Source: Bacteroidales bacterium (GTDB lineage Bacteria; Bacteroidota; Bacteroidia; Bacteroidales; UBA932). From it: a stretch of 64,000 nt of DNA. The stretch is from NCBI GenBank assembly GCA_017619655.1, contig JAFZRV010000001.1:186001-250000 (forward strand). The letters run 5' to 3'. Below, piece after piece: positions 3,361-33,501 of this stretch (positions are counted from its first letter, which is position 1; each line of letters starts with the position of its first letter). The translations under genes and the position numbers were made by a program. Below the pieces are notes generated by a model. That model saw only the letters and a list, made by a program, of their open reading frames with translations, ran no database searches and had not been told where the DNA came from.

Positions 3361-4824
3361 TTATTTCTTCGGAGCGTCTTCGATGACGGCCTGGATGAAG
3401 GTCCACCATTTGGCGACGGAGGGCACGAAGCAACGCTCGTCCGGGGAGTGGGGCGATTTGAGCGTCGGGCCGCAGGAGATCATGTCCCAGGTAGGATAGG
3501 CGCCTGCCAGGATACCGCACTCGAGGCCGGCATGGATGGCCATCACGGCGGGTTCCTTGCCGAAGAGCTTCTTGTACTGCTCTTTCATGGTCTTCAGGAT
3601 GGGCGACTTCATGTTGGGCACCCAGCCGGAGTAGCCGCCGTCGAAGAAGACCTTCGCGCCGGCGAGCTCGAAGCAGCAGCGGATCGATTCGGCGAGGTCC
3701 AGCTTGAGCGAATCGGTCGAGCCGCGCATCAGGGTCTTGATCTCGATGGTGTCCTTTTCGGTCTTGACGATGGCCAGGTTGTTGGAGGTCTCGACGAGAT
3801 CCTTGACCTCGAGGCTCATGCGGTCGACATTGTTGGGGCAGGCATAGATCGCACGGAGAAGCTTGAGCCCGGTCGTGCCCGCCATGACGGTCTTGGCTTT
3901 GGCGGGAGCGTAGGTCAGCGAGACGTTGGGGTCGATGGCTGCGAGTTCCGACTTGAGGGTGGCGAGGGTGGCGTCGATAATCTTGCCGGCCGCGTTCTCC
4001 TTGTCGGCGGGGAGGGCGATGACGGCTTCCGCTTCACGCGGGATGGCGTTGCGCATGTTGCCGCCGTCGAAGCTGACGAGCTTGCCGCGCAAGTGGCGTA
4101 CCATCGGCATCAGGACGCGGGCCAGGATCTTGTTGGCGTTGCCGCGGCCTTCGTTGATCTCCATGCCGGAGTGGCCGCCGCGCAGGCCGGTTACGCCGAT
4201 GGCGAAGGCTGCGTAGCCTTTGGGCATCGGAGCGGTCTTGTACTTGAAGGTGACGTTGGCGTCGAGGCCGCCGGCGCAGCCCACGTAGAGTTCGCCTTCC
4301 GTCTCGGAGTCGAGGTTGAGCAGGATCTCTCCCTTGAGGACGCCCGGCTTGAGGGCCTTGGCGCCGACCATGCGGGTTTCTTCGTCGACGGTGAAGAGGG
4401 CCTCGATGGGGCCGTGCTTGAGGGTCTTGGACTCGAGGACCGACATGGCTGCCGCCACGCCGAGGCCGTCGTCCGCACCGAGGGTGGTGCCGCAGGCATA
4501 CACCCAGTCGCCGTCGCTCTCATGGACGATGCGGGTTTCGATCGGATCCTTGACGAAGTCGTGCTTCTTGTCGTTGTTCTTCTGCGGAACCATGTCCATG
4601 TGGGCCTGGAGGATGATGCCTTTGCGGTCTTCCATGCCCTTGGTGGCCGGTTTGCGGATGATCACGTTGCCGCATTCGTCCTGGAACGATTCAAGGCCGA
4701 GGTCCTTGCCGAACTGGACAAGGAACTTGGCGACTTTCTGGGTATGGCCGGACGGACGGGGAATCTGGGTGAGCGCGTAGAAATTGTTCCACACGTTCTT
4801 GGGTTCTAATTTACGGATAGGCAT
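3361..4824 (-). CDS. pepD: Aminoacyl-histidine dipeptidase (M20 family)
   Basis: This 487-residue protein has the PepD/M20C layout: LQAHMDMVPQKN carries the first zinc-ligand His-x-Asp, GADDGLGVAAAM the bridging Asp, DEETRMVGA the catalytic Glu, and HAGLECG a later ligand region. It should be a cytoplasmic zinc dipeptidase with broad Xaa-His-type specificity. No signal peptide is seen. It lies 28 bases after the DUF4831 gene on the same strand and probably shares its transcript. Confidence 0.93.
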   Translation of the reverse strand: MPIRKLEPKNVWNNFYALTQIPRPSGHTQKVAKFLVQFGKDLGLESFQDECGNVIIRKPATKGMEDRKGIILQAHMDMVPQKNNDKKHDFVKDPIETRIVHESDGDWVYACGTTLGADDGLGVAAAMSVLESKTLKHGPIEALFTVDEETRMVGAKALKPGVLKGEILLNLDSETEGELYVGCAGGLDANVTFKYKTAPMPKGYAAFAIGVTGLRGGHSGMEINEGRGNANKILARVLMPMVRHLRGKLVSFDGGNMRNAIPREAEAVIALPADKENAAGKIIDATLATLKSELAAIDPNVSLTYAPAKAKTVMAGTTGLKLLRAIYACPNNVDRMSLEVKDLVETSNNLAIVKTEKDTIEIKTLMRGSTDSLKLDLAESIRCCFELAGAKVFFDGGYSGWVPNMKSPILKTMKEQYKKLFGKEPAVMAIHAGLECGILAGAYPTWDMISCGPTLKSPHSPDERCFVPSVAKWWTFIQAVIEDAPKK

Positions 4825-26424: not shown

Positions 26425-28869
26425 ATGACTTTTCAACGCTTTCTCCGGCAATACGGGGCTTACCTCGTGGCGGCGGTCCTCTTTGTCGGGGCCTCCGTCG
26501 TTCTCTGCTATCCCGCACTGCAAGGCAAGGTCCTCTATGCCTCGGACAACGTCAATGCCCGGTGTGCGGCCAGCGAGGCCTACAATTACCACCAGGAGAC
26601 GGGGAAAGTGACCTGGTGGACGGACAACATGTTTTCAGGCATGCCCGTCTACCAGGTGAAGTCAGGTCAATACAAGGCCGACCGTTGGCTGGCGCCGGTA
26701 AAAACCCTGCAGCAGGTGGGGCGGCGCACACCGGCCGGTTTTTTCATTCTCTACTTCTTCTGCTTTTTCCTGCTGCTTCGTTCGTTCGGGACGGACAAGT
26801 GGCTGAGCATCGCGGGAGCTTTCGCCCTCACGCTGTCTTCCTATTTCGTGATCATCGTCGGGGCCGGGCATAACACCAAGGCCACGACGATCGCCCTGAT
26901 GAGCGTGGTCCTGGCGGGATTCTGGCTGCTTTTCCGCAAGCGATACGGGCTCGGTGCCGTGGCGTGCCTCGTCTTCACCGCCGCCGGCATCACCTCGCAC
27001 CCCCAGATGTCCTACTACATCATCCTGCTGATCGGCGTCCTCTGGATCGCCCAGCTGGTGGTGCATATCCGCCGGAAACGGATCCGGGATTTCGTGCTCG
27101 CGACGGCGGTCTTCACCGCCTGCGTGGGCGTGGGAACCCTGGCGAACGCGTCGAGCGTCTTCGCCAACATGGAGTTCGTGGAAGAAACCAACCGCGGCTC
27201 CCATTCCGATGTGGAGACCACTACGTTCCTCACCAACTTCAACTACGGTCCGCTGGAGTCCTTCTCCCTGCTCATCCCCGGCGTGGTGGGCGGCCGGTCC
27301 CATGTCGTGGTGGATGCGCATTCCCGTTTCTATAAGACCTTGGTCGCCGACGGCCTGTCCGCGAAAAATGCGCGCCAGCTCTCCGAAGACGTGCCCCTGT
27401 ACTGGGGCAACCAGACCTTTACCGAAGGAAACGTCTATGTGGGCGCGCTGGTCTGTTTCCTCTTCCTGCTGGGCCTGCTGCTGGTGAGGGGGCCTGCCAA
27501 ATGGGGCCTGCTGGTGGCGACGGTGTTTTCCCTGCTGCTGGCGCTGGGCGAGTATTTCATGCCGCTCTCGCGTTTCTTCTTCGTCTATTTCCCGTTCTAC
27601 TCCAAGTTCCGGGCGGTCGCTTCCATTCTGATCGTGGCGGAGATCGCCATTCCGCTGCTCGGGTTTATGGGCGTGCAGCGCCTGCTGGACGGTGGTGTGG
27701 AGAAGGCCAAGGCCCTGCGGGCCATTTTGATTTCCGCCGGCATCACGGCGGGGGTCTGCCTGCTATTCGCCGTCCTGGGCCCTTCGCTGCTTTCTTTCGT
27801 GTCTGAGCGCGATGCCAGCTGGGATGCCTCGGAATACGAATGGATGTATCGGGCGGTGATCGCGCAGCGCAAGTGGATCCTGGTGCACGACAGCGTCCGT
27901 TCGGCCGCGTTCATCCTGGCGGGCGCCGCGGTTCTCTTCTTTTTCGTGAAAGGGAAGCTGAAGCGGGGCCTGATGATCGCGTGCCTGGGCCTGCTGGTCG
28001 TGCTGGACATGTGGCCGATCGACCGGCGCTATTTCAATGAGAGCAATTTCGTGACCTACAGCAGCAACGACGAGGCTTATCAGGAACAGCCCTGGGAAAG
28101 CGCCATCCTGCAGGAACCCGGCTTCTTCCGCGTGCTGAACCTTTCCACCGGACAGGCCTACACGGAAGCCCGCACGTCCCTGCGGCTTCACTCCGTCGGC
28201 GGCTACAGCGCCGCCAAGCTCCGCCGCTACCAGGACCTGATCGATGCGCACCTGCTGAAGGGGCATGTTTCGGTGGTCAACCTGCTCAATGCGCGCTACC
28301 TCGTAATGAACGACGAGAACGGGACGCCGCAGCCGCAACTGAATTCCGATGCGCTGGGCAATGCCTGGTTCGTCGACGAGATCAAGGCGATGCCCGACGA
28401 GGAAACGGAGCTGCTCGTCCTGAACGCGTACGACCTGCAGACGCAGGCGCTGGTCAGCGCCGAATCGGCCCGCTTCGCGACCACGAGCGCGGCGACGGTC
28501 TTCCGTACGCCGGACCCTGAGCGAAGCGTCCAGCTGGTCGACCATGCGCCGAATATGCGGGAATACAGCTTCTCTTCCCACAATCCGGAGTTTGTCGTCT
28601 TTTCGGAAATCTACTACCCGTATGGCTGGAAAGTGTTCATCGACGGAAAGGACGCCGAGTATTTCCGCGCGGATTATGCGCTCCGGGCCATGTTCGTGCC
28701 GGCCGGCAGCCACAGCATCCGCTTCGTCTTCGATCCGGACAGCGTGAAGAAGGGCGACCGCATGGCCATCTGCTTCATTATCCTCCTCTATCTGTCCGTG
28801 GCTGCGATCGCCGTCACAGCCGTCGTGCGGCGGATTATTTCAGATTCTGGGTCAGCTTGTAAAGCTTGA
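26425..28869 (+). CDS. YfhO family membrane protein
   Basis: The 814-residue product has about 12 hydrophobic helices in residues 1-520 and a soluble C-terminal domain, the YfhO layout. Early motifs such as [17 protein letters not shown] and [10 protein letters not shown] are typical of the Bacteroidetes group. YfhO proteins are GT-C-like and are linked to glycosylation of cell-wall or surface polymers in Gram-positives; here the substrate is unknown. The last 35 bases overlap the end of the convergent hydrogenase gene. Confidence 0.88.
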
Positions 28870-30280
28870 CGGAGTTCTCGATAGTTTTCTCCTTGGCCTC
28901 GTTGCCATAGCCTTCGACATCGGCGATGTTCTTCGGGCTGTGTGTCAGGCAGAGCGCGCCGTTGATGCAGCCGCCGTCGCAGGCCATGCCTTCGAAGAAG
29001 TTGGCCGTGGCCTTGCCCAGCTTGAGTCGCAGCAGGTTGGCCCGGCACTCGTCGATGCCGCTCATCACGACCGGCTCGACGCCTTCCACGCCATAGGAAG
29101 CGGCCACGTCGGCCACGCCGCGGGCCACGCCGCCCGACTTGGCGAAGATTCGTCCGTAGAACGAGGCGTTGTCCAGGCTGCTGTCTTCCAGGGCCGTCGT
29201 GTCGATGTCCAGCGCATCGAAGAAGGCCTGCAGCTCTTCGAACGAAAGGACGCTGTCGATGGCGCCGCCGGTCTTGGGCAGGCGGTATTCCATCTTCTTG
29301 GAACTGCAGGGGCCGATGAAGACCACCTTGGCCGTCGGGTCCGAATGCTTGATGAGCCGGGCCGCTTCCACCATCGGCGAGACGGAGGAAGAGACGTATT
29401 TCGTCAGTTCCGGGAAGTTCTTTTCGAGGAACGCTACGAACGAAGGACAGCAGGAAGTCGTCAGCAGGCGTTTCTCCTTCCATTCGTTCACCTCGTGGTA
29501 GAGCGTGATGTCGGCGCCGAGGGCTGCTTCGACCACCTGGTGGAAGCCGATCTTCTTGATGGCGGTCACCACCTGCGACACGCGGCCGAAATGGAACTGG
29601 CTCACGATGGCAGGAGCGATGACGGCATAGACCCGGTAGTTCTTTCCGCCTTCGGAACCCTTGAGCATGTCGATGATGTCGGTGACGAACGACTTGTCGG
29701 TGATGGCGCCGAAGGGGCAACGGTACACGCAGGCGCCGCAGGCGATGCACTTCTCATAGTCGATCATGGCCTTGCGGTCGGCATCCATCGAGATGGCTTT
29801 CACCTTGCAGCTCTTGATGCAGGGGCGGTGGCGCGTGATGATGGCCTCGTAGGGGCAGACCTGGCTGCATTTGCCGCATTCGATGCATTTGTCCTTGTCG
29901 ATGACGGCGTGCTTGTCGACGATCGAGATGGCGTCGCGGGGGCAGGCGTCCTTGCAGGCGTGCATCAGGCAGCCGCGGCAGGCGGACGTGACCAGCATGC
30001 CGTCGATCGGGCATTCGTCGCAGGCGATGTCGATGACGGCGATCGGGTTGATGTTCGTCCGGTCGCCGCCCATCGCCATCCAGACGCGCTCTTCGGAGAT
30101 CGCACGCTCCTTATAGATGCAGCAATGCATGCTTTCCTTGTTGCCGGCGGCGATGTCCTTGGCAATGTCGATGCGGGCGGATTCGAGGTCTCCGGCGAAA
30201 GCGTGCTTGATGACTTCCTTGAGTACCTTGTACTTGACGAGTTGGACGTTGGTATCGAATATCTTGTTGGTAACGCTCAT
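28835..30280 (-). CDS. [FeFe] hydrogenase, group B type
   Basis: The 481-residue protein has ferredoxin-like Cys clusters ([12 protein letters not shown] at 132-142, [12 protein letters not shown] at 178-189, plus further Cys at 101-113) and an H-cluster domain. The three H-cluster motifs are TSCCPSF (275-281), FIGPCSSKK (321-329) and EGMACDGGC (430-438). The L2 motif GPC instead of MPC and the lack of GGGQP after L3 fit group B rather than group A enzymes. All four H-cluster cysteines are present (277 or 278, 325, 434, 438), so catalysis is possible. It is the last gene of the sensor/phosphatase operon. Maturases HydEFG are not in the window. Confidence 0.9.
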
Positions 30281-30298
30281 GAGAGAGGTGGTTTTCGG

Positions 30299-31459
30299 TT
30301 AGTCGTAGTATAGGGTCACTTTTTTGCCCATGGCACGCAGGTTGGCCGCCAGGTGCTCCACGAGCTTGAGCTTCATCGTGGTGTCGATCTCGAGGCCCTG
30401 GTGGGCCTTGTTGACGCTCTGCCCGATGAAGAACTGGATGCTGGTCGCCTCCTCGAAGAGGATGTTGGCCAGCTGGGACGCGCCGTCCTTCCGGGGGAAG
30501 GTCTTGGCGCTCAGGTCGCTGATGGACAGGTAGCGGTCCGACAGCTCCAGCAGGCGCCGCATCGTCAGCACGCCTTCCGTGGCCAGGTCGATGCCTTCGA
30601 TGAAGCCGATGGGCGGGACGTCCTTGTCCGGGAAGTCGAAGCTGGTTTCCAGCGTCTTGCCGAGGTGCCGCGCAACGATCTGGGCGGTGGTGCCGCCGCA
30701 GACCACTTTCTTGCCGTCCCCCTCCAGGAAGCTGGATACGTAGAAGTCGTCGCTTTCCCGGTCGACCGGCGGGCCGACCATGATGTTGACATGCAGGGGC
30801 TCGCGGATACGGATGGCGGCGACGGTCGTGTCGTCGCCGGGCTTGTCGAGATACAGGTCGTTGCAGGCGGAGGCCAGCATGCAGGCGACGGCCCGGGCGG
30901 ACATCTCGGGCCGGATGGTCCGTTCGAGGTGCTCCATGATCTGGGGACGCGTCCAGCCAAAGTTGAGGATCTTGCCCACGCCGGCATGGACGGTGCCGTC
31001 GCTCATGACGATCACCAGGTCGTTTTTCTGGAGCTGCAGGGTGCTCTTGTAGACTTTTTTCCCGCGGATGATCATCTCGTCGCGCGCGAAATCCAGGCAG
31101 TGGCCGTCGTGGTACCAGATGGCCTGCGGATTGTCGAACTCGAAGAGGCAGCCCTCGCCTTGCCGGTTGACGTGGATGACCGAGAAGGTGGAGTAGGCGA
31201 GCCGGCGCACCTTGCAGACCGGCAGGGTCTGGATGATGGTCTCGATGCAGTCGATGATGTCGATGTCGTTGGCGATCATCTTGCAGAGGAGCTTGGCCGT
31301 CAGCGTGGAGAGGATGCTGGCCTTCACGCCGCTGCCCAGCCCGTCGGCCAGGACGAGCGTCGTCCAGTCATCATTCTGGCACAGCTCCACCTGGTCGCCG
31401 CACAGCTCCTCGCCGTATTTGTTGAGGGAAGAGCAACCGTATTCGAGACAGAGGTCCAT
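30299..31459 (-). CDS. SpoIIE-type PP2C phosphatase with novel C-terminal region
   Basis: With the start at 31459 (MDLCLEYGCSSLNKYGEE) the product is 386 residues and its ATG overlaps the stop of the PAS-hydrogenase gene. Residues 1-230 form a PP2C/SpoIIE domain with the metal Asp residues in VLADGLGSG, VIVMSDGTVHAG and PGDDTTV. The remaining 150 residues match no family I can name. SpoIIE-type phosphatases act on anti-sigma antagonists or similar phosphoproteins; no such partner is encoded nearby. Context points to signalling downstream of the hydrogenase-like sensor. Confidence 0.85.
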   Translation of the reverse strand: MDLCLEYGCSSLNKYGEELCGDQVELCQNDDWTTLVLADGLGSGVKASILSTLTAKLLCKMIANDIDIIDCIETIIQTLPVCKVRRLAYSTFSVIHVNRQGEGCLFEFDNPQAIWYHDGHCLDFARDEMIIRGKKVYKSTLQLQKNDLVIVMSDGTVHAGVGKILNFGWTRPQIMEHLERTIRPEMSARAVACMLASACNDLYLDKPGDDTTVAAIRIREPLHVNIMVGPPVDRESDDFYVSSFLEGDGKKVVCGGTTAQIVARHLGKTLETSFDFPDKDVPPIGFIEGIDLATEGVLTMRRLLELSDRYLSISDLSAKTFPRKDGASQLANILFEEATSIQFFIGQSVNKAHQGLEIDTTMKLKLVEHLAANLRAMGKKVTLYYD

Positions 31460-33168
31460 TACTCTTCCTTTTTGTCTTCTTCGAGGATCTTTTTCAGGTT
31501 GACCAGCGCGACCTTGGTTTCCGCGGTCGTCTCGCCGAGCAGGGAGGCGATTTCCTGCGCCACGCGCATCTGCTTGGTGATGACCTCGTCGGCGGTGCGG
31601 ATGGTGTTCTGGCGCACGGTGTCGAGCTGCTGGTTGTAGTTGACGATGCTGGTCACGTCCTTCATGATGCCGAAGAGGATGTGCTGCTCCGGGATCTTGC
31701 TGACGGTCAGCTTCACGTAGGTATTGGTCGTGGGGATGAACATCTCGTCCTCGTAGATGCTCGCTTCCTGCTTGAGGGCATAGGTGAAGGCGGCGGGATC
31801 GAAGAAGTCGGCGGCCATGCGGCCTTTGAAATCCGTGCTTTCGATGCCGAGCAGTTCGAGGGCCTTGTTGTTGATCTCCAGGATCCGGAGGTCGTTGTTG
31901 AGCACCACGATGCCTTCGGGGCTGTTGTGGATGATTTCGTAGGACATGGTTTCGGCGCGCTGCCGCATGTAGGGCAGGCACACGTCGATGTCAGCGTAGC
32001 CGTTGATCACGGCCCAGGCCTTCTCGCGGCAGGTGGAATAGCCGCAGGAGCCGCAGTTGCGCTCGTCTTCCGGCTTGTACTTGCCGATGCGGTGGAGCAC
32101 TTCCTCGATCTCCCGGTTGGAGGCGGGGCGGCCTTTGGTCCGCAGGCGCGGATACTCGGCGTCGAGGATGACGCGGGTCTTGCCGGCCTCGGCGTCGGCG
32201 GGATACTTCTGTTTCTCGGCGTCGACGTAGTTCCAAACCTCGCAGGCGGAGCGAATGGTGCCGCCGTCCTTTTTGATGATGCAGGGACCACCGATGCAGC
32301 CGTCCTTGCAGACGTTCATCTCCAGGAACACGTGGTCGAGGTGCTCGATGCTGTCAAGCGCCCGGATGCAGCGGTTGATGCCGTCGATGGCCAGGTAGGC
32401 ATAGCCCTTCGGCCGCTGGACGAACGAATTGATGATGCCGCGGGACACGGGATAGGTCTTGGCGAAATTGGCGTGCGATTTCTCGGGCTCGAGCTGCACG
32501 TCCATGATTTCGGACAGCACGATGCCTTTCTCGTCGAACATTGCCTGCAGATCCTGAAAAGTCAGCACGCCGGAAACCAGGCCGCTTTCGGCGGCTTCCT
32601 TCTTCTTGGCGATGCAGGGGCCGATGAAGACGATCTTGGCGCCGGGGTTCTGTTCCCGGAGCATCTTGGCGTGGGCGATCATCGGGGAATCGACCTTGGC
32701 CAGGTACTTCAGCGCCTTGGGATAGTATTTCTGGATGAGTTGGCAGGCGGCCGGGCAGGCGGAGGTGATGAACTTGTCGTAGGTGCCGCTTTCGAGCAGT
32801 TCCTTGTATTTGCGTGTGACGGCTTCGGCGCCCACGGCGGTTTCTTCGGCGTCGGCGAAGCCGAGCCGGGCGAGCGCCAGCTTCAGGACCGAGAAATTGG
32901 AGATGCCGAAGTTCGAGACGAAGGAAGGCGAGACGCTGGCGATGACTCTCTTTCCGGAGTTCAGCAGGATGCGGATCCGGTCGACCTCACTGACGACCAC
33001 CTTGGCGTTCTGGGGACAGACCCGCGTGCAGTGTCCGCAGAGGATGCATCGGTCTTCGAGGATCGTGGCTTCGCGGTCCTTGATGGCGATGGCCTTGACC
33101 ATGCATTCATGCAGGCACTTGTAGCAGTCGTTGCACTGAACGTTCTTGGAAAACAGATACGAGGCCAT
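31459..33168 (-). CDS. PAS-linked sensory [FeFe]-hydrogenase-like protein (HydS type)
   Basis: This 569-residue protein has two [4Fe-4S] motifs (CNDCYKCLHEC at 12-22, CILCGHCTRVCP at 41-52), then an H-cluster-like domain with altered motifs TSACPA (135-140), FIGPCIAKK (181-189) and VCKDGC (286-291). A further Fe-S motif, CGSCGYSTC, lies at 372-380, a PAS domain at about 412-510, and a short coiled tail ends the protein. The TSACP motif and the PAS domain place it with the group C sensory proteins rather than catalytic hydrogenases. It probably senses H2 or redox state and signals to the adjacent phosphatase. Confidence 0.88.
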   Translation of the reverse strand: MASYLFSKNVQCNDCYKCLHECMVKAIAIKDREATILEDRCILCGHCTRVCPQNAKVVVSEVDRIRILLNSGKRVIASVSPSFVSNFGISNFSVLKLALARLGFADAEETAVGAEAVTRKYKELLESGTYDKFITSACPAACQLIQKYYPKALKYLAKVDSPMIAHAKMLREQNPGAKIVFIGPCIAKKKEAAESGLVSGVLTFQDLQAMFDEKGIVLSEIMDVQLEPEKSHANFAKTYPVSRGIINSFVQRPKGYAYLAIDGINRCIRALDSIEHLDHVFLEMNVCKDGCIGGPCIIKKDGGTIRSACEVWNYVDAEKQKYPADAEAGKTRVILDAEYPRLRTKGRPASNREIEEVLHRIGKYKPEDERNCGSCGYSTCREKAWAVINGYADIDVCLPYMRQRAETMSYEIIHNSPEGIVVLNNDLRILEINNKALELLGIESTDFKGRMAADFFDPAAFTYALKQEASIYEDEMFIPTTNTYVKLTVSKIPEQHILFGIMKDVTSIVNYNQQLDTVRQNTIRTADEVITKQMRVAQEIASLLGETTAETKVALVNLKKILEEDKKEE

Positions 33169-33177
33169 GGGCGGGGG

Positions 33178-33465
33178 CTATTTCTTGATGAAGGGATAGA
33201 TGTCTCGCAGGAAAAGCTCTTCGACGTTTTCGCTGTTGACGTTGTGGAGCAGCATGTCGCCGTTGCCGAGTTTTTCCACGGCCGGATTGTCGAGCCCTTC
33301 CGCCTTGACGGTGACGCCCTGTGCGCAGAAGCCCAGGCAGAAGCTGGCCCGGAGTTCCACCAGGTCTTCGACATCGCATTTCTTGATGATGTCTTTCAGG
33401 GCCTCGATCACGTCGTAGGACCCTTTGAGATGGCAGGAGCTGCCGACACAGACTTTCAGTATCAT
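33178..33465 (-). CDS. Thioredoxin-like [2Fe-2S] ferredoxin
   Basis: The 95-residue protein has the NuoE/HndA-like thioredoxin-fold [2Fe-2S] pattern: Cys6 and Cys11 (KVCVGSSCHLKG) and Cys43 and Cys47 (SFCLGFCAQG). It is the size of stand-alone ferredoxins that serve [FeFe] hydrogenases. It begins the operon and is 9 bases from the sensory hydrogenase gene, so it is a likely electron donor or acceptor for one of the two H-cluster proteins. Confidence 0.88.
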   Translation of the reverse strand: MILKVCVGSSCHLKGSYDVIEALKDIIKKCDVEDLVELRASFCLGFCAQGVTVKAEGLDNPAVEKLGNGDMLLHNVNSENVEELFLRDIYPFIKK

Positions 33466-33493: not shown

Positions 33494-33501
33494 CAAAATT
33501 A
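33494..33501 (-). promoter_or_regulatory. Candidate -7 box of the hydrogenase operon
   Basis: TAATTTTG on the minus strand matches TAnnTTTG and ends 28 bases before the start of the [2Fe-2S] gene. It lies within 4 bases of the stop of the upstream DUF3108 gene on the same strand, so read-through from that gene is also possible. No good -33 box is seen. Confidence 0.5.

Follow-up and report, generated by a model that had tools for sequence, protein, structure and literature searches.

The 64,000-nucleotide (nt) window analysed here, positions 186,001 to 250,000 of contig JAFZRV010000001.1 from a Bacteroidales bacterium of the UBA932 lineage, carries on its minus strand a compact operon of four genes that we designate A to D. 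An earlier note on this DNA, made from the letters alone, had read them as a thioredoxin-like protein, a PAS-domain hydrogenase, a SpoIIE-type phosphatase and a group B hydrogenase that together signal H2 or redox state. The features are listed below with window coordinates and with lengths in amino acids (aa).

33178..33465, minus strand: gene A, thioredoxin-like [2Fe-2S] small subunit, 95 aa (PF01257, a marginal 25.2 bits, and conserved cysteines)
31459..33168, minus strand: gene B, PAS-containing sensory [FeFe]-hydrogenase of the HydS/HfsB type, 569 aa (family matches and conserved cysteines)
32284..32952, minus strand: H-cluster domain of B, residues 73-295 (PF02906, 148.4 bits)
31651..32061, minus strand: C-terminal [4Fe-4S] motif (residues 370-399) and PAS domain (residues 417-506) of B (PF04060, PF13426)
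30299..31459, minus strand: gene C, SpoIIE-type PP2C phosphatase with an extra C-terminal domain, 386 aa (PF07228, 43.9 bits; AlphaFold model)
30797..31459, minus strand: PP2C domain of C, residues 1-221
30302..30796, minus strand: C-terminal domain of C, residues 222-386, an unrecognised alpha/beta domain (without Pfam or NCBIfam match; model mostly of high confidence)
28835..30280, minus strand: gene D, group B [FeFe]-hydrogenase, 481 aa, predicted to evolve H2 (TIGR04105, 530.4 bits)
33494..33501, minus strand: TAATTTTG, candidate Bacteroidota -7 element (match to the motif TAnnTTTG), starting 36 nt upstream of gene A

Checked on the sequence, all four genes lie at these coordinates on the minus strand, spaced by 9 bases (A–B), -1 base (B–C) and 18 bases (C–D). 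The paired variants picked out by the earlier note are present, TSACP with VCKDGC in B and TSCCP with MACDGGC in D, and Pfam and NCBIfam matches agree with each of the four identities it assigned. A scan of the nearest genes in the window also showed no kinase or anti-sigma gene beside the operon, as had been stated there.

Gene B has the anatomy of a sensory [FeFe]-hydrogenase. Its Pfam content is Fe_hyd_lg_C, FeS and PAS, and its score against NCBIfam FeFe_hydrog_B1 (204.7 bits) lies below the cut-off of 450. In an alignment of 94 sequences, from which rows shorter than 350 residues were excluded and in which a few genomes are present twice (L028 is L128, L029 is L131), the H-cluster cysteines C138, C185, C287 and C291 are kept in 92–93 rows and the C-terminal Cx2Cx4Cx16C cysteines in all 94. 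Three second-sphere positions, C299, M353 and M497, are reported as altered in sensory [FeFe]-hydrogenases in the accessible text of PMC10055695; we placed them in B by motif, with CpI numbering as given there and in PMC8163306. At the M353 position the window has Gly, as do 93 of 94 rows, and at the M497 position Asn, where the rows mostly hold Asn (51) or Ser (32). The C299 position is Ala in the window and in 44 rows, and Cys in 41. The accessible description of group C (M2f) sensory hydrogenases gives an N-terminal 4Fe-4S site, a C-terminal Cx2Cx4Cx16C motif and a PAS domain (PMC8163306); B shares all three features with them, as well as the H-cluster cysteines, and is predicted to bind H2. 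Gene A barely passes the 2Fe-2S_thioredx profile (PF01257; 25.2 bits against a cut-off of 24.8), and none of the 83 sequences aligned with it, its own among them and the other 82 being the matches obtained at 96 loci, lacks any of its cysteines C6, C11, C43 and C47. A PAS-containing H-cluster subunit with a second subunit is likewise the make-up described for the dimeric sensory hydrogenases of group C D(M2f) (accessible text of PMC3561251).

The phosphatase assignment of gene C is borne out by profile, fold and motifs together. C scores 43.9 bits against PF07228 (SpoIIE), its AlphaFold model has a mean predicted local distance difference test score (pLDDT) of 90.6 and compares structurally with the SpoIIE fold, and the pairs G21-D22, D39-G40, D154-G155 and D209-D210, presumably the aspartate motifs that bind the PP2C metals, are invariant in 56 of 56 sequences. 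Beyond residue 221 follows a conserved domain of about 165 residues, modelled at a pLDDT of about 81–94 by ten-residue blocks with one block near 58. The window's copy of this domain gave no match in Pfam or NCBIfam up to E 1; across the 56 members the matches are weak and scattered, among them the NBD_C nucleotide-binding domain in four (best E 0.022). Against the PDB the domain matched one chain, the phosphoheptose isomerase 3trj (SIS fold; E 0.0017 over 59 positions), which we treat as a lead only. A VIA-align search with the whole C model, in which only residues 1-221 were spanned by at least a fifth of rows, says nothing on a new fold. Conserved GPP and CGGTT loops, with the weak isomerase and NBD_C matches, are the sole hints behind a tentative proposal, which we rate at well below even odds: that the domain is a Rossmann-like small-molecule sensor, possibly for a phosphorylated sugar or nucleotide, so that C would integrate H2 (via B) with a metabolite and act on a substrate new to H2 signalling. 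In literature on hfsC or on SpoIIE proteins with [FeFe]-hydrogenases, searched mostly without subscription papers, no listed paper was recognised as treating the phosphatase substrate, and no description of this domain was found.

Gene D passes NCBIfam FeFe_hydrog_B1 (TIGR04105) at 530.4 bits against the cut-off of 450, and matches Fe_hyd_lg_C at 193.1 bits together with several Fer4 profiles. Of the 66 aligned sequences, chosen for more than 45% identity and a length of 400–600 residues, all have cysteines C277, C278 and C325, and 65 have C434 and C438. We predict from these matches a ferredoxin-linked, H2-evolving enzyme. Group B enzymes from Bacteroides produce H2 (PMC12578642); D is likened to the gut Bacteroides enzyme by passing the group B1 cut-off, and the accessible text of that paper describes no sensor-phosphatase operon beside the enzyme. 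At its 3' end D overlaps by 35 bases (28835–28869) the 3' end of a convergent plus-strand open reading frame (ORF; 26425–28869) for a YfhO-like membrane protein.

The earlier note had tied its reading to HydEFG maturases elsewhere in the genome, which holds in part. With three [FeFe] H-cluster genes in its 1.40 Mb (60.65% complete), the window's genome carries on contig C7 HydG and HydF beside a HydA, with a NuoE-like protein that is putatively HydC and an upstream 640-residue open frame that is putatively HydB. A search for HydE in this assembly, which is 61% complete, returned nothing but a cross-match to HydG. A full C gene occurs in nine of 37 same-genus genomes, the window's included (a tenth, G030, matches weakly and in the PP2C part only); HydE passes its cut-off in six of these nine, the exceptions being G000, G025 and G035, and in G036 and G022 it lies on the operon contig, a few kilobases (kb) after D.

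A profile search of genome contigs with the C alignment returned at least 586 stretches, with at least 577 relatives, of which the best 80 were kept; being chosen by C, this sample favours close relatives. Within it the gene order recurs, as the earlier note had anticipated. All 80 have B no more than 200 nt upstream of C. Where at least 2400 nt of upstream DNA is available (72 relatives), A precedes B in 70, at a lenient E <1 because A is short; where at least 1500 nt of downstream DNA is available (also 72), D follows C within 1.2 kb in 58. The pairing is counted from the C side, and the share of B genes without C is not given by this sample. Pairwise distances correlate across the 62 sets that hold B, C and D, the window's included (Mantel r 0.94 for B–C, 0.89 for B–D and 0.84 for C–D; 0 of 1000 permutations as high). 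Because shared ancestry alone also gives such correlation, these values show co-inheritance, not contact. In the relative L052 a calcineurin-like phosphoesterase gene (3879–4421) stands between C and D, and in L063 a gene from this group comes before A.

A shared candidate promoter motif lies ahead of the operon. TAnnTTTG, which we take to be the Bacteroidota -7 consensus, occurs within 60 nt upstream of A in nine of nine same-genus copies, compared with a mean of 0.45 and a maximum of four of nine in base-shuffled controls (5000 rounds); the copies are related, and so are not nine independent trials. In the window, B, C and D have no such motif in the 60 nt ahead of them. It is likewise absent within 90 nt before A in four of four copies from other Bacteroidota (L030, L037, L045 and L048, the start in L045 being approximate); an alcohol dehydrogenase gene precedes A in L030 and L037. 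A scan for sigma-70 promoters and terminators gave a result near the shuffled level, and tRNA and Rfam scans gave no match.

In ethanol-producing Clostridia a closely similar gene set has been studied genetically. According to the accessible text of PMC5707799 and PMC11837493, the hfsABCD operon of Thermoanaerobacterium saccharolyticum and T. thermosaccharolyticum comprises hfsA, hfsB (a PAS [FeFe]-hydrogenase), hfsC (serine phosphatase-like) and hfsD (an [FeFe]-hydrogenase). Those papers report that deleting hfsA or hfsB in T. saccharolyticum raises ethanol yield, NADH-linked alcohol dehydrogenase (NADH-ADH) activity and adhE transcripts, and that deleting hfsC, hfsD or the whole operon brings no rise in yield. 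Compared by description, the window shares the PAS [FeFe]-hydrogenase, the phosphatase and the second [FeFe]-hydrogenase as genes 2–4. The first gene differs: HfsA is said in the accessible text to align well with no known protein (PMC11837493), whereas the window's A is marginally thioredoxin-like. No Thermoanaerobacterium-titled locus is among the best 80 relatives of C.

These deletions bear on the idea that B is an auxiliary enzyme and not a sensor, A and B forming a slow dimeric hydrogenase with C and D as co-regulated passengers. B does keep all its H-cluster cysteines, and the authors of PMC13277313 suggest, in its accessible part, that HfsABC could work as a hydrogenase without HfsD. 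The hfsB deletion phenotype in T. saccharolyticum (PMC5707799, as far as accessible) points the other way, as do the PAS domain, the altered second-sphere residues and the constant B–C pairing in 80 of 80 relatives chosen by C; we regard an auxiliary role as highly improbable.

The related set that the earlier note named from Ruminococcus albus does exist: the accessible text of PMC6776011 describes a hydS/hydA2 cluster with a sensory hydrogenase and a putative phosphatase. The likeness extends to a PAS group C sensory hydrogenase, a putative Ser/Thr phosphatase and a ferredoxin-only hydrogenase. That cluster falls 111-fold in co-culture; it differs from the window's operon in having eight genes, AdhE among them, and a catalytic enzyme called group A1, whereas D belongs to group B. 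An adjacent Ser/Thr kinase has been proposed there (cited in the accessible part of PMC5707799), and none was seen beside the window's operon. HydDB, in its accessible description, labels [FeFe] group C3 'phosphatase-linked (putative)' and names no substrate (PMC5037454). B, directly followed by a PP2C phosphatase, is likened to C3 by that description and not by the HydDB classifier, and the extra domain of C is not described there. Descriptions of hfsABCD already cover the gene set, its serine phosphatase and a PAS protein that is a likely regulator, and HydDB lists C3 as phosphatase-linked. The operon is therefore of a kind already known (hfsABCD, HydS/HydA2, HydDB C3), and the window adds a further member among Bacteroidales copies.

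Fermentation genes recur around the operon in the fetched DNA of the 80 relatives. AdhE or a related iron alcohol dehydrogenase was found in 23, with AdhE frames of at least 865 aa in 13 by simple ORF calls; the other ten loci are cut by contig ends, have shorter iron alcohol dehydrogenase frames (judged by sequence for L032 and by length for L036 and L037) or gave unclean calls. A kinase of the APH/RIO type is present in 17, usually just before A, and the three that were scanned matched APH and RIO1 in Pfam. Rex occurs in 13, and a bifurcating-type HydA in at least five, by a filter that skipped 3.5 kb after C. At least one of these four is present in 35 of the 80. Because contig ends cut many flanks, all these counts are lower bounds. 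Upstream of B in L049, L059 and L084, which are two Bacillota bins and one Treponema bin, Rex, AdhE and an APH/RIO-type kinase come first in a single run that continues into the sensor-phosphatase genes and makes up a cluster for fermentation control.

The presence of Rex near 13 of the 80 operons raises the question of what is sensed. The signal might be the redox state of ferredoxin or of the nicotinamide adenine dinucleotide (NAD) pool rather than H2, the H-cluster then setting the redox coupling of the iron-sulfur chain, and A weakly resembles NuoE-type electron-transfer subunits, though far below curated cut-offs. Conservation of the H-cluster ligands in B speaks for H2, as does the fermentation stoichiometry of R. 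albus, which tracks H2 level (PMC6776011, accessible text); the published data consulted do not separate the two signals cleanly. We consider a purely redox signal unlikely, with perhaps one chance in a handful.

The fold of C, SpoIIE/RsbU-like, would also suit a transcriptional output, in which C dephosphorylates a STAS antagonist of an RsbW-like kinase and the partner switch frees a sigma or anti-sigma factor. Contig C12 of the window's genome (L117, 10915–13144) encodes a second SpoIIE-type protein (633 aa) followed by a 101-aa protein read by eye as STAS-like; about 1 kb upstream lies a match to an RsbW-like HATPase. That putative partner-switch module has its own SpoIIE protein and appears separate from the operon. 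Neither STAS nor an RsbW-like kinase is among the window's nearest genes, none of the 30 most recurrent neighbour groups of the 80 loci was recognised as STAS or HATPase (mostly judged by eye), and the recurrent kinase of the relatives belongs to the APH/RIO type. A transcriptional output seems to us a distinctly poor bet.

We favour, at a probability of about 0.68, an hfsABCD-like (HydDB group C3-like) operon in which the A–B sensory hydrogenase reads H2 or redox state and switches C, which in turn adjusts D and probably other fermentation enzymes. A and B would form a dimeric sensory [FeFe]-hydrogenase, and H2 or redox state would be read at the H-cluster of B. The signal would then pass through the iron-sulfur clusters of B, the C-terminal Cx2Cx4Cx16C one among them, and so reach the PAS domain. 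This domain and the conserved helix that follows it would switch C through a presumed B–C contact and in a presumed direction; C may in turn dephosphorylate a Ser/Thr-phosphorylated protein as its putative substrate, which would alter the making or the activity of D and probably of other fermentation enzymes. The analysis itself shows the parts with their active-site residues, the conservation of gene order, the promoter motif, and a divergence that is correlated among B, C and D. Sensor, phosphatase and second hydrogenase, as the earlier note had combined them, fit the anatomy, the conservation and the published genetics. A signalling role for the operon is supported by homology, and a regulatory one by published work on relatives.

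Several results weigh against this proposal. The residue at the C299 position does not define a sensor, because it is Cys in 41 of 94 B sequences. D cannot be an obligatory target, since no group B gene was found after C in the fetched DNA of 14 of 72 loci. HydE was not found in the window's assembly and in two of the eight other operon-bearing assemblies. Full-length AdhE was not found in the nine operon-bearing genomes of the genus, which are 61–95% complete, and unassembled DNA may hold missing genes; partial matches of 23–31% identity occur in G022, G025 and G035. This differs from hfsABCD, where adhE and ethanol are affected according to the accessible text, and the published AdhE output may for this reason not carry over to the genus. 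Nor was a clear counterpart of the relatives' kinase found in these nine genomes: the window's genome gave only distant APH-like matches (18–25% identity), the others gave up to 28%, with 34% over 61 residues in G025 and none in G035, and some operon-free genomes (G020, G034, G032) hold better matches. The operon's H2 response, phosphatase activity and substrate are themselves predictions. AdhE as the direct phosphatase target in the genus was considered and is not supported by the nine assemblies; the substrate there is probably another protein.

The nine copies of the genus fall into more than one setting. Four, the window's included, follow UvrA2-like and DUF3108 genes and are flanked on the D side by ROK and permease-like genes. 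In three (L130, L131 and L132) a bifurcating-type HydA-HydC pair directly precedes A, and in the remaining two neither setting was seen. Dimeric PAS sensory hydrogenases are usually encoded upstream of bifurcating hydrogenases (PMC3561251, accessible text); the window's operon differs in not lying beside HydA, whereas those three copies directly follow HydA-HydC.

By C, the nearest named relatives include L028 (94% identity) and L029 (83%). When 96 C proteins were placed in a tree, the named Bacteroidota rows grouped together (92/73, not starred; 93% of 200 bootstrap trees). This group and the genus copies are nested among Bacillota rows, below five starred branches and a further one without a star (85/35). 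Eight distant copies from Bacteroidales, found in seven genomes and with C 31–36% identical to the window's, stand apart on long branches. A single transfer from Clostridia into Bacteroidales would fit this tree; foreign contigs may be present in bins, and counts of this kind are no proof of transfer. The distant B–C pairs (L013–L019 and L021) have a different sensor sequence, and at least three of their genomes (G043, G048 and G059) carry further [FeFe]-hydrogenase genes on the operon contig.

Beyond the published descriptions, as far as these are accessible, go the extra domain of C, the recurrent AdhE, Rex, kinase and HydA neighbours, and a genus in which neither full-length AdhE nor a clear kinase counterpart was found. 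The window's operon is a good and unsurprising example of a known system, and the useful question that it poses concerns the target of the phosphatase and the ligand of its extra domain. That target, if found, would make H2 feedback on fermentation testable.

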